Shown: piece after piece, positions 29,080 through 32,128 of the stretch
Numbering within the stretch: position 1 is the first letter of the stretch
How the letters are laid out: each line of letters begins with the position of its first letter
Source of the DNA: Actinomycetota bacterium
GTDB lineage: Bacteria; Actinomycetota; Actinomycetes; Nanopelagicales; Nanopelagicaceae
Length of the DNA stretch: 43,471 nt
Reading direction: 5' to 3'
NCBI GenBank assembly: GCA_005787575.1
Contig: SYAN01000030.1
Coordinates: forward strand, 1 to 43,471
Made by a program: the position numbers and the translations under genes
The notes under the pieces: generated by a model
The model's input: only the letters and a program-made list of their open reading frames with translations
What the model was told of the DNA's origin: nothing
Database searches by the model: none

Positions 29080-29578
29080 TGAAGTCTCGCCTTCAGATAT
29101 TGATGCTATTGCGAAGCAGTTAGGACGCGAGCCACGAGATGTGCATCGCATTGCACATCGTTGTCCTTGCGGTGATCCCGATGTCATCGAGACGCCTCCG
29201 CGACTTGAGGATGAAACGCCATTTCCTACGCTTTATTACGCCACTTGCCCCCGTCTTACCTCGGCGATCTCCACGCTCGAGGGAAGTGGTGTGATGGCAA
29301 CGATGTCAGAAGAATTGGAGCAGGATGCGAATCTCGCTGGCCTCTATCGCGCTGCACATGATGATTACATCGCAACGCGCGATGTGCTCGCCAGGCAACT
29401 TGATATCGATGTCCCTGAGATTGATGGGATTTCTGCTGGCGGAATGCCAGACCGCGTCAAGTGTCTACATGCGCTCATTGCACACTCACTTGCGGTAGGT
29501 GAAGGAGTCAATCCCTTGGGTGATCGCGCCCTTGCAGCGTTAGCACCTTGGTGGCAGAAGGGAAGTTGTCGTGGCTAG
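29072..29578 (+). CDS. DUF501 family protein
   Basis: A 168-residue protein with the typical DUF501 features: QLGREPRDVHRIAHRCPCGDPDVIETPPRL near the start (two Cys), FPTLYYATCPRLTSAISTLE, and GMPDRVKCLHALIAHSLAVG toward the end. The conserved Cys residues suggest metal binding, but no biochemical role is known. The GTG start overlaps the divIC stop by 8 bp and the stop overlaps ppx by 8 bp, so the three are co-translated. Confidence 0.9.
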
Positions 29579-30491
29579 AGTCGCCGCAATTGACTGCGGC
29601 ACCAACTCAATTCGATTGCTGATTGCTGATGTCCAAGCAGGATCCTTTCGAGAAATCTCGCGCGATATGGAGATTGTTCGCCTAGGAGAAGGGGTCGATC
29701 GCACCGGAATGTTCGATGAGCGTGCGGTTGAGCGAACTCTTGGCGCTCTCGATGGTTTCATTGATGAGATGCGACGTCGAGGGGTGGAGCGCATTCGATT
29801 CTGTGCCACCAGCGCCACACGAGATGCGTCCAATCGAGATATCTTCGTTGGTCCAGTTCGAGAGCGACTTGGTATTGAACCAGAAGTGATTCCGGGCGAG
29901 GAGGAAGCGGCGCTATCTTTTCTTGGCGCAACTAAAGAAATCGAAGTAGATCAGGGTCCATTTCTCGTCGTTGATATTGGTGGTGGTTCCACAGAGTTCG
30001 TTCTCGGAGGCGAGAAAGTTGAATCATCGATGAGCGTCAATATCGGCTGTGTCCGAATGGCTGAACGCCACTTACATTCCAATCCTCCGACGAGAGATTC
30101 CCTCGAGCAGGCGATCGCAGATATCGATGATGCAATCGCACGTGCTGGTGAGCAAGTAGATTTTCGATCCGCCAAGAAGTTGATCGCAGTGGCAGGGACC
30201 GCAACGACCGTCGCTGCTGCATCACTTGGCCTTGAAAGTTATGACCGATATGCGATTCATCTGGCCGAGATCCCTGCGCCAGAGGTTCATCGGGTGGCGC
30301 TCATGTTTCAGAGTATGGATAGAGCGGCGATTGCGGCGCTTGGTTATATGCACCCCGGCAGGGTCGATGTCATCACAGCGGGGGCGTTAATACTCTCTCG
30401 AATAATCCAAGCCACAGCTGCGTCTTCATTCATTGCTTCAGAGTCAGACATCTTGGATGGAATCGCACTCTCACTTGGTGGTGTTGATTAG
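29571..30491 (+). CDS. ppx: exopolyphosphatase / Ppx-GppA family
   Basis: A 306-residue ASKHA-fold phosphatase: AAIDCGTNSIRLLIADV (phosphate loop 1), RFCATSATRDASN, VIPGEEEAALSFLGA, FLVVDIGGGSTEFVLGG (loop 2) and VAGTATTVAAASLGL. It is the short form (one ASKHA module, no C-terminal HD domain), as in the actinobacterial Ppx1 type that hydrolyses short polyphosphate or pppGpp. Start is GTG within the end of the DUF501 gene. Confidence 0.93.
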   Translation: MARVAAIDCGTNSIRLLIADVQAGSFREISRDMEIVRLGEGVDRTGMFDERAVERTLGALDGFIDEMRRRGVERIRFCATSATRDASNRDIFVGPVRERLGIEPEVIPGEEEAALSFLGATKEIEVDQGPFLVVDIGGGSTEFVLGGEKVESSMSVNIGCVRMAERHLHSNPPTRDSLEQAIADIDDAIARAGEQVDFRSAKKLIAVAGTATTVAAASLGLESYDRYAIHLAEIPAPEVHRVALMFQSMDRAAIAALGYMHPGRVDVITAGALILSRIIQATAASSFIASESDILDGIALSLGGVD

Positions 30492-30495
30492 CACT

Positions 30496-31188
30496 GTGAA
30501 GAAACTCGCATTGCTTCAAAAAGAGATCGTTGAATGCAGACGCTGTCCTAGGTTGGTGAATTGGCGGGAAGAAGTAGCACGCGTTAAACGAAAGTCATAT
30601 ATAGATCAAGAGTATTGGGGAAAGCCAGTCCCGAGTTTTGGCGTGGATGAACCATCTATCTTGATTGTCGGATTGGCTCCAGGAGCACATGGGGCGAATA
30701 GAACGGGACGAATCTTCACTGGTGACAGTTCAGGAGATTGGCTCTATCGAGCATTGCATCGAGCAGGTCTTGCAAAATTCCCAACCAGCACTTCACGAGA
30801 GGATGGCCAAGAACTCTTCAAAACGAGAATCACCTGTGCGGTCCGATGCGCGCCGCCAGGTAATAAACCGAGCACTATGGAGCGGGATAACTGCAGTCAT
30901 TTTTTCGTGAAGGAAATGGAACTGGTGATGCCCAGCCTGAAAGTGGTAGTCGCCTTGGGAGGCTTTGCTTGGCAGGCAGTTACGCGCCAGTTGTTGGGAA
31001 TGGGCGAAAACTTGAAGCGAATTCCCAGGTTCGGGCACGGTGTCGAGTTGCAGTGGATTGGGAAAGACGGGAATAGTCGCCTTCTGGTTGGGAGTTACCA
31101 TCCCAGCCAACAGAACACCTTCACTGGCAAGCTGACTCAAGCGATGTTGGACCAGGTGATGAAACGGGCAGGTAGATTCTCCCGTTAA
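30496..31188 (+). CDS. family 5-type uracil-DNA glycosylase (Fe-S)
   Basis: A 230-residue glycosylase of the UDG superfamily. Four cluster-type Cys are seen: two in VECRRCPRLVNWREEVA, then CAVRCAPPGNKP and DNCSHFF. The active-site loop reads IVGLAPGAHGANRTGRIFTGDSSG, and the second motif is VGSYHPSQQNTFTGKLT (His-Pro-Ser). Type 5 (UDGb) enzymes remove uracil, hypoxanthine and other deaminated bases. I start at the GTG at 30496, 4 bp after ppx; an upstream frame start lies inside ppx. The stop codon directly abuts the following tRNA. Confidence 0.9.
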   Translation: MKKLALLQKEIVECRRCPRLVNWREEVARVKRKSYIDQEYWGKPVPSFGVDEPSILIVGLAPGAHGANRTGRIFTGDSSGDWLYRALHRAGLAKFPTSTSREDGQELFKTRITCAVRCAPPGNKPSTMERDNCSHFFVKEMELVMPSLKVVVALGGFAWQAVTRQLLGMGENLKRIPRFGHGVELQWIGKDGNSRLLVGSYHPSQQNTFTGKLTQAMLDQVMKRAGRFSR

Positions 31189-31261
31189 GCCCCTGTAGCC
31201 CAACGGCAGAGGCAGACGACTTAAAATCGTCCAAGTGTGGGTTCGACCCCCACCGGGGGCA
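31189..31261 (+). tRNA. class I-shaped tRNA with anticodon UAA (tRNA-Leu by anticodon)
   Basis: A 73-nt cloverleaf: acceptor GCCCCTG/CGGGGGC, T8-A9, D-arm with GG in the loop, anticodon stem GACGA/TCGTC with loop CTTAAAA (anticodon TAA), variable region CAAGT of only 5 nt, T-arm GTGGG/CCCAC with loop TTCGACC, discriminator A, no CCA. A UAA anticodon and A73 fit leucine, but bacterial tRNA-Leu normally has a long variable arm (class II). The gene starts on the base after the UDG stop codon, so it may be cut from that transcript. Confidence 0.85.
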
Positions 31262-31348
31262 CGTTGAATAAGAAGGTTGAATAAGAAGATAGAGAAGACA
31301 GTCAAGACCAAGCATCGCGAAGTCGATGAGATTCAAGGAGATCACGAG

Positions 31349-32128
31349 ATGGAAAGTTCAAATCCAGTATTCAAACGGGGTTATGCCGCGATGGATGTCC
31401 GTGAACTTGATCGAACTGAGGAAGTAAGGAATCTCGAAGAGCAGTTCGCGGCTCCTTCCGCTTCTTCGATTCGCACTGGTCGAATCACGATGGAAGATGT
31501 CGTAGCAAGAACCGGAATGCTCTTTGGAATCTTGGTAGTCACCGGGGCCTTGGCTTGGTATCTCAATCTAGGTTTTGGTGCGCTTCTTCTCGGTTTTGGA
31601 GTGGGTTTTGTCCTCTCATTGGTTATAAGTTTCAGTAAGACAGTTCGTCCAGCGCTTGTGATGGTTTATGCAGCGATGCAAGGACTTGCACTCGGTGTGA
31701 TCAGCAATGTCTACGAGTCCATCTATCCAGGAATCGTCAGCCAGGCAGTGATCGGCACGCTCGCAGCCTTTGTTGGTGCGCTCTATGCATATCGCAGTGG
31801 AAAGGTGCGAGTCACTCCTCGCTTCACGCGAATACTTGTTACTGCATTGATCGGCTATCTTGTACTTGGAGTCGTCAACTTAATCGCAGTGCTCGTCTTC
31901 AATGCCTCAAGCATCTATTCGCAGGGTCTTTTGAGTGTTGGTATCTCTGCACTCGGTGTCGCTCTAGCCTCCTTCTTCTTGATTTTGGATTTCGATCAAG
32001 CGTCGAAGATGGTCGCAGCTGGTGTCCCTGAGGTTGAGTCGTGGCGTGCCGGGTTTGGCCTGATGGTCACAATCGTCTGGCTCTATCTCGAAGTCCTTCG
32101 CCTAATCTCAATCCTTCGTCGCGACTAA
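31349..32128 (+). CDS. Bax inhibitor-1/YccA-family membrane protein
   Basis: A 259-residue protein opening with MESSNPVFKRGY, typical of the actinobacterial YccA group, then a hydrophilic stretch (to about 65) and seven predicted membrane helices (about 66-255), ending near a di-Asp-like charged terminus. Family members may conduct calcium/protons; function in Actinobacteria is unknown. The start at 31349 has a strong AAGGAG 8 bp upstream; the frame's earlier ATG at 31277 lacks one. Its stop overlaps the stop of the convergent MFS gene by 4 bp. Confidence 0.9.
   Translation: MESSNPVFKRGYAAMDVRELDRTEEVRNLEEQFAAPSASSIRTGRITMEDVVARTGMLFGILVVTGALAWYLNLGFGALLLGFGVGFVLSLVISFSKTVRPALVMVYAAMQGLALGVISNVYESIYPGIVSQAVIGTLAAFVGALYAYRSGKVRVTPRFTRILVTALIGYLVLGVVNLIAVLVFNASSIYSQGLLSVGISALGVALASFFLILDFDQASKMVAAGVPEVESWRAGFGLMVTIVWLYLEVLRLISILRRD

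Follow-up and report, generated by a model that had tools for sequence, protein, structure and literature searches.

A class I body in the leucine tRNA gene for UUA codons of a Nanopelagicales bacterium

Leucine tRNAs are placed in class II, with a long variable arm, by a review of odd tRNAs (PMC7609411). The locus considered here raises the question of whether a bacterial tRNA that has the anticodon for UUA but only a short variable region can be an ordinary leucine isoacceptor. It lies on contig SYAN01000030.1 of a draft genome from the family Nanopelagicaceae (Actinomycetota; assembly GCA_005787575.1), and all 43,471 nucleotides of that stretch are referred to below as the window. The initial annotation had left three options: a genuine short-arm tRNA-Leu, a tRNA charged with another amino acid, or a special way of reading UUA.

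A fully paired class I cloverleaf

The gene and its diagnostic parts are as follows.

31189..31261, + strand: class I tRNA-Leu(UAA), 73 nt, discriminator A at 31261
31198..31213, + strand: D arm GCC-CAACGGCAGA-GGC, 3 pairs, with C12-G23, C13, A14, A15, G18G19 and A20a
31222..31224, + strand: anticodon TAA (positions 34-36) in the loop CTTAAAA
31232..31236, + strand: variable loop CAAGT, 5 nt (positions 44-48), with U48 facing A15

The UAA anticodon in CTTAAAA, A73 and the 5-nt variable region, all reported initially, were confirmed by three routes: ARAGORN calls a tRNA-Leu(taa) at 31189-31262, the Rfam model RF00005 matches 31189-31261 end to end (57.2 bits, E 7e-10; cut-off 29 bits), and the cloverleaf could be parsed in full. 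In the parsed structure, the acceptor stem GCCCCTG/CGGGGGC forms seven pairs, including one U-G, and is followed by TA; A26 separates the D arm from the anticodon arm (GACGA-CTTAAAA-TCGTC, five pairs), and the T arm (GTGGG-TTCGACC-CCCAC, five pairs) leads to the discriminator A73. Since every stem is fully paired, the variable region needs no alternative placing, which disposes of the concern that its shortness might stem from misalignment. With CAAGT the gene thus belongs to class I (variable region of 4-5 nt) and falls short of the at least 10 nt of class II. Neither broken stems nor lack of conservation, the marks of a pseudogene, were found, and a chance origin of the match is excluded by the Rfam score together with conservation throughout the order. 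The folding energy of the RNA is modest (z -2.3) and carries no weight as evidence.

A conserved chromosomal location

The tRNA gene is embedded among three protein-coding genes of the same orientation.

29571..30491, + strand: ppx-like gene, belonging to the conserved neighbourhood
30433..31188, + strand: uracil-DNA glycosylase-like gene (UDG), which more likely starts at the in-frame GTG at 30496
31277..32128, + strand: gene for a Bax-inhibitor-1-like (BI-1) membrane protein, the 3′ neighbour in most relatives

The stop codon TAA of UDG occupies 31186-31188 and G1 of the tRNA is at 31189, so that the two genes are exactly adjacent, as had been noted at the outset. The gene row eno-ftsB-DUF501-ppx-UDG-tRNA-BI1 is conserved, and a search around ppx, which the initial annotation had proposed, covered about 20 relatives belonging to many genera, in most of which the tRNA lies between ppx/UDG and the BI-1-like gene. 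Two of these have no UDG and the tRNA still lies between ppx and BI-1, in some additional genes intervene, and in one (L134) none of the usual neighbours was found. The nearest relative compared, whose neighbouring protein is 87% identical, has an identical tRNA gene, also directly after the UDG stop, in which the CCA end is encoded; CCA is not encoded in the gene of the window. Neither a sigma-70-like promoter beside the tRNA nor a + strand terminator was found there, which fits read-through from UDG but is no proof of it. The tRNA would probably be co-transcribed behind ppx-UDG and released by RNase P and by processing of its 3′ end, CCA being added later. Directly 3′ of the gene, a perfect 13-nt tandem repeat (GTTGAATAAGAAG, two copies, 31263-31288) extends into the start of the BI-1-like frame.

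Reading of UUA

Eleven proteins encoded in the window were aligned to their relatives codon by codon. UUA is aligned with leucine in 72% of cases, compared with 64-70% for the other leucine codons, and of 161 columns that contain UUA and in which at least 90% of the other codons specify one residue, 154 are leucine columns. This pattern of exchange shows that UUA is read as leucine here. Since no other reader of UUA is known, the tRNA would then have to carry leucine. The alternative in which it carries another amino acid, with UUA reassigned or ambiguous, draws on the class I body, which is atypical among bacterial leucine tRNAs; UUA nevertheless exchanges with leucine codons just as they do with one another, the complete set of leucine determinants is present (see below) and the genome has one ordinary leucyl-tRNA synthetase (LeuRS), so that we regard this alternative as barely credible. 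A special reading of UUA likewise found no support, the 108 UUA codons among the roughly 13,400 codons of the window looking ordinary.

The genome itself, a 1.24-Mb draft that is 88% complete, yields 17 tRNA matches to RF00005. Three are leucine tRNAs: the class I UAA gene of the window, a class I CAA gene and a class II UAG gene. One full-length LeuRS is encoded (profile positions 2-842 of 843); the other matches to the LeuRS profile are partial, lie below the cut-off and resemble related synthetases, one of them being the MetRS encoded in the window. The class I tRNA-Leu(UAA) is probably charged by this LeuRS. No class II tRNA-Leu(UAA) was found in this 88% complete assembly.

Class I and class II genes in the order and phylum

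To cover both forms, the order was surveyed with a pattern that admits short as well as long variable regions. Among the matches listed, tRNA-Leu(UAA) was detected in 139 of 151 genomes; nearly all have the class I length of 43 nt, and mostly there is one per genome. The few longer ones show no anticodon stem by eye, so that none is a convincing class II gene, and three genomes (G089, G132 and G143) have doubtful matches only, again among the matches listed. Genomes of the order that are 99-100% complete (for example, G007, G010, G011, G014 and G017) also contain class I only. Twelve members of the order, all drafts, and one further member of the class gave no match, and none was recovered by a relaxed pattern, the survey pattern being one that misses tRNA genes with altered loops. 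The corresponding tRNA-Leu(CAA) pattern matched 120 of 121 genomes, nearly always at class I length and with some additional chance-like matches.

At the level of the phylum, class I tRNA-Leu(UAA) is present in 62 of 297 genomes, representing 17 of the families sampled, and 24 of these 297 genomes match the class I tRNA-Leu(CAA) pattern. The named holders are Tsukamurella sputi and three Lentzea species. The rarity implied by the initial annotation was thus mistaken: the feature is general in the order and common in the phylum. Both UAA forms were sought in 199 genomes of the phylum: class I turned up in 39 and class II in 97, no genome combined the two, and the rest matched neither pattern. 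Four families (f10, f17, f19 and f48) include both forms in different genomes, which suggests that replacement probably occurred more than once. Short chance-like matches aside, the outgroups that matched (Acidimicrobiia, Chloroflexi, Acidobacteria, Planctomycetes and others) have class II; since class II is what the other sampled bacterial phyla have, the polarity would be loss of the arm rather than its gain.

These distributions also bear on the suspicion that the gene is silent, as a pseudogene or a spare copy, and that a class II tRNA-Leu(UAA) in the unassembled 12% of the genome does the decoding. The incompleteness of the assembly leaves room for such a gene, but complete relatives have the class I gene only, the two classes are mutually exclusive across the phylum, and the gene of the window has all stems paired at a conserved location. 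We consider this scenario very improbable. The pairing of a class II tRNA-Leu(UAA) with a decayed class I gene, which would have overturned the initial interpretation, was not encountered in this genome, and the gene is conserved. Collectively, the short-arm tRNA-Leu(UAA) is a real and ancient structural variant of an ordinary decoding gene.

An altered core with intact synthetase determinants

LeuRS of Escherichia coli and Aquifex recognizes A73, U8:A14, A15-U48, G18G19 and A20a, and the E. coli enzyme does not need the long arm, for mini-tRNAs without it are charged (reviewed in PMC9976931). Every one of these reviewed bacterial determinants is present in the tRNA of the window, which answers the call for an inspection of its identity elements. 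When 39 sequences of class I were compared with 26 of class II, the determinants agreed in both classes but for rare exceptions, namely A15 (38/39) and U48 (36/39) in class I, and G18 (21/26) in class II.

Other positions distinguish the classes. Positions 12, 13 and 23 separate them completely and position 9 nearly so: class I has A9 (37/39) for G9, C12-G23 (39/39) for G12-C23 and C13 (39/39) for a purine at 13. Positions 9, 12-23 and 13-22 form triples that pack on the variable region. The changed positions being those in contact with it, the class I form would reflect remodelling of the core and not just a deletion. In a tree built with the class-specific positions, the class I sequences group together (support 97); when these positions are left out, the tree neither demonstrates nor rejects a single class I clade (p 0.50), tRNA sequences being too short for a tree to settle a single origin. 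A switch of anticodon in another class I isoacceptor was considered and rejected; the D arm and the determinants are of the leucine tRNA type.

The gene is thus very probably a genuine leucine isoacceptor, as the first of the three initial options had it; this option is strongly supported by the comparative data. It would be the organism's normal, and probably only, UUA-reading tRNA, to which the single standard LeuRS would attach leucine. Its lineage would be an old one among bacterial leucine tRNAs, one that presumably lost the long variable arm, with the core altered along with it (A9, C12-G23, C13 and a loop of 5 nt, in most cases with AGU at its end) and the LeuRS determinants, U8/A14 and the others, left almost untouched.

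Relation to other leucine tRNAs

The class I tRNA shares with canonical bacterial class II tRNA-Leu(UAA), including the bldA type, the anticodon, A73, A14, A15-U48, G18G19, A20a, the three-pair D stem and the T loop. It differs in the variable region, which measures 14-19 nt in class II compared with 5-6 nt in class I, and in having A9, C12-G23 and C13 where class II has G9, G12-C23 and a purine at 13. A precedent for a leucine tRNA without the long arm is the mammalian mitochondrial tRNA-Leu(UUR), whose identity depends on A73 and A14 (PMC9976931); that tRNA is organellar and has a loose anticodon branch, whereas the bacterial class I cloverleaf is well paired. In Mycobacterium tuberculosis, tRNA-Leu-2, -3 and -5 are named as long-loop in one report (PMC11541572), which suggests that the remaining tRNA-Leu have short loops. 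In M. phocaicum and M. mucogenicum, a tRNA cluster includes a short-loop tRNA-Leu(TAG) (PMC6582537); this gene is an extra copy, unlike the resident chromosomal UAA gene considered here. The available portions of both papers discuss neither a resident chromosomal class I tRNA-Leu(UAA) nor its core changes and spread. A search of the open-access literature retrieved no paper treating a bacterial tRNA-Leu(UAA) of class I as an isoacceptor; such genes are present in public genomes yet apparently undiscussed.

Class I tRNA-Leu genes also occur in phage records (L096, L097, L098, L099 and L100) with hosts among Pseudomonas, cyanobacteria, Rhodococcus and mycobacteria, one record being a faecal phage sequence. 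Their anticodon is UAA, with GAG and CAA in addition in phage Bonray, and several records have class II tRNA-Leu genes beside class I. The phage tRNAs resemble the gene of the window in loop length and in the C12-G23 signature; they differ in being phage-borne, with some hosts in other phyla. The same core signature and whole-gene identities of up to 83% could be taken to mean that the class I gene was recently acquired from a phage or plasmid tRNA array. However, about 20 relatives from many genera have it at one and the same chromosomal site, flanked on both sides by ordinary housekeeping genes, which makes recent acquisition highly unlikely; a phage source predating the order is possible. 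On a more speculative and improbable extension, class I leucine tRNAs would be one old mobile lineage of Actinomycetota and tailed phages that repeatedly replaced class II UUR isoacceptors because, without any cost to its charging, the arm-less form escapes arm-recognizing enzymes (tRNA-modifying toxins, arm-reading nucleases).

Returning to the genuine leucine isoacceptor, a whole order decodes UUR with class I leucine tRNAs, and about one-fifth of the sampled genomes of the phylum do so for UUA. The two classes offer a natural comparison in which positions 9, 12-23 and 13 move with the arm and LeuRS determinants hardly ever do, and through which arm loss and LeuRS recognition become directly testable. 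The variant is also relevant to automatic tRNA annotation and to studies of UUA-based regulation beyond Streptomyces.

Other tRNA-related loci

Three further observations concern tRNA genes of this genome. Upstream of secE-nusG-rplK, a tRNA-Trp gene (C18:6882-6955, - strand) has the anticodon CGA and is called as tRNA-Ser; the anticodon of its counterpart is CCA in three close relatives, and a single-base assembly error or a strain variant is likelier than recoding. A partial tRNA-Tyr-like copy (C64:9863-9944, - strand), rejected by ARAGORN, is separated by about 2.9 kb from an intact tRNA-Tyr gene and may be a remnant left by a mobile element at its attachment site. Finally, positions 1-48 of the window hold the 3′ part of a tRNA (RF00005 positions 25-71) truncated by the window start.
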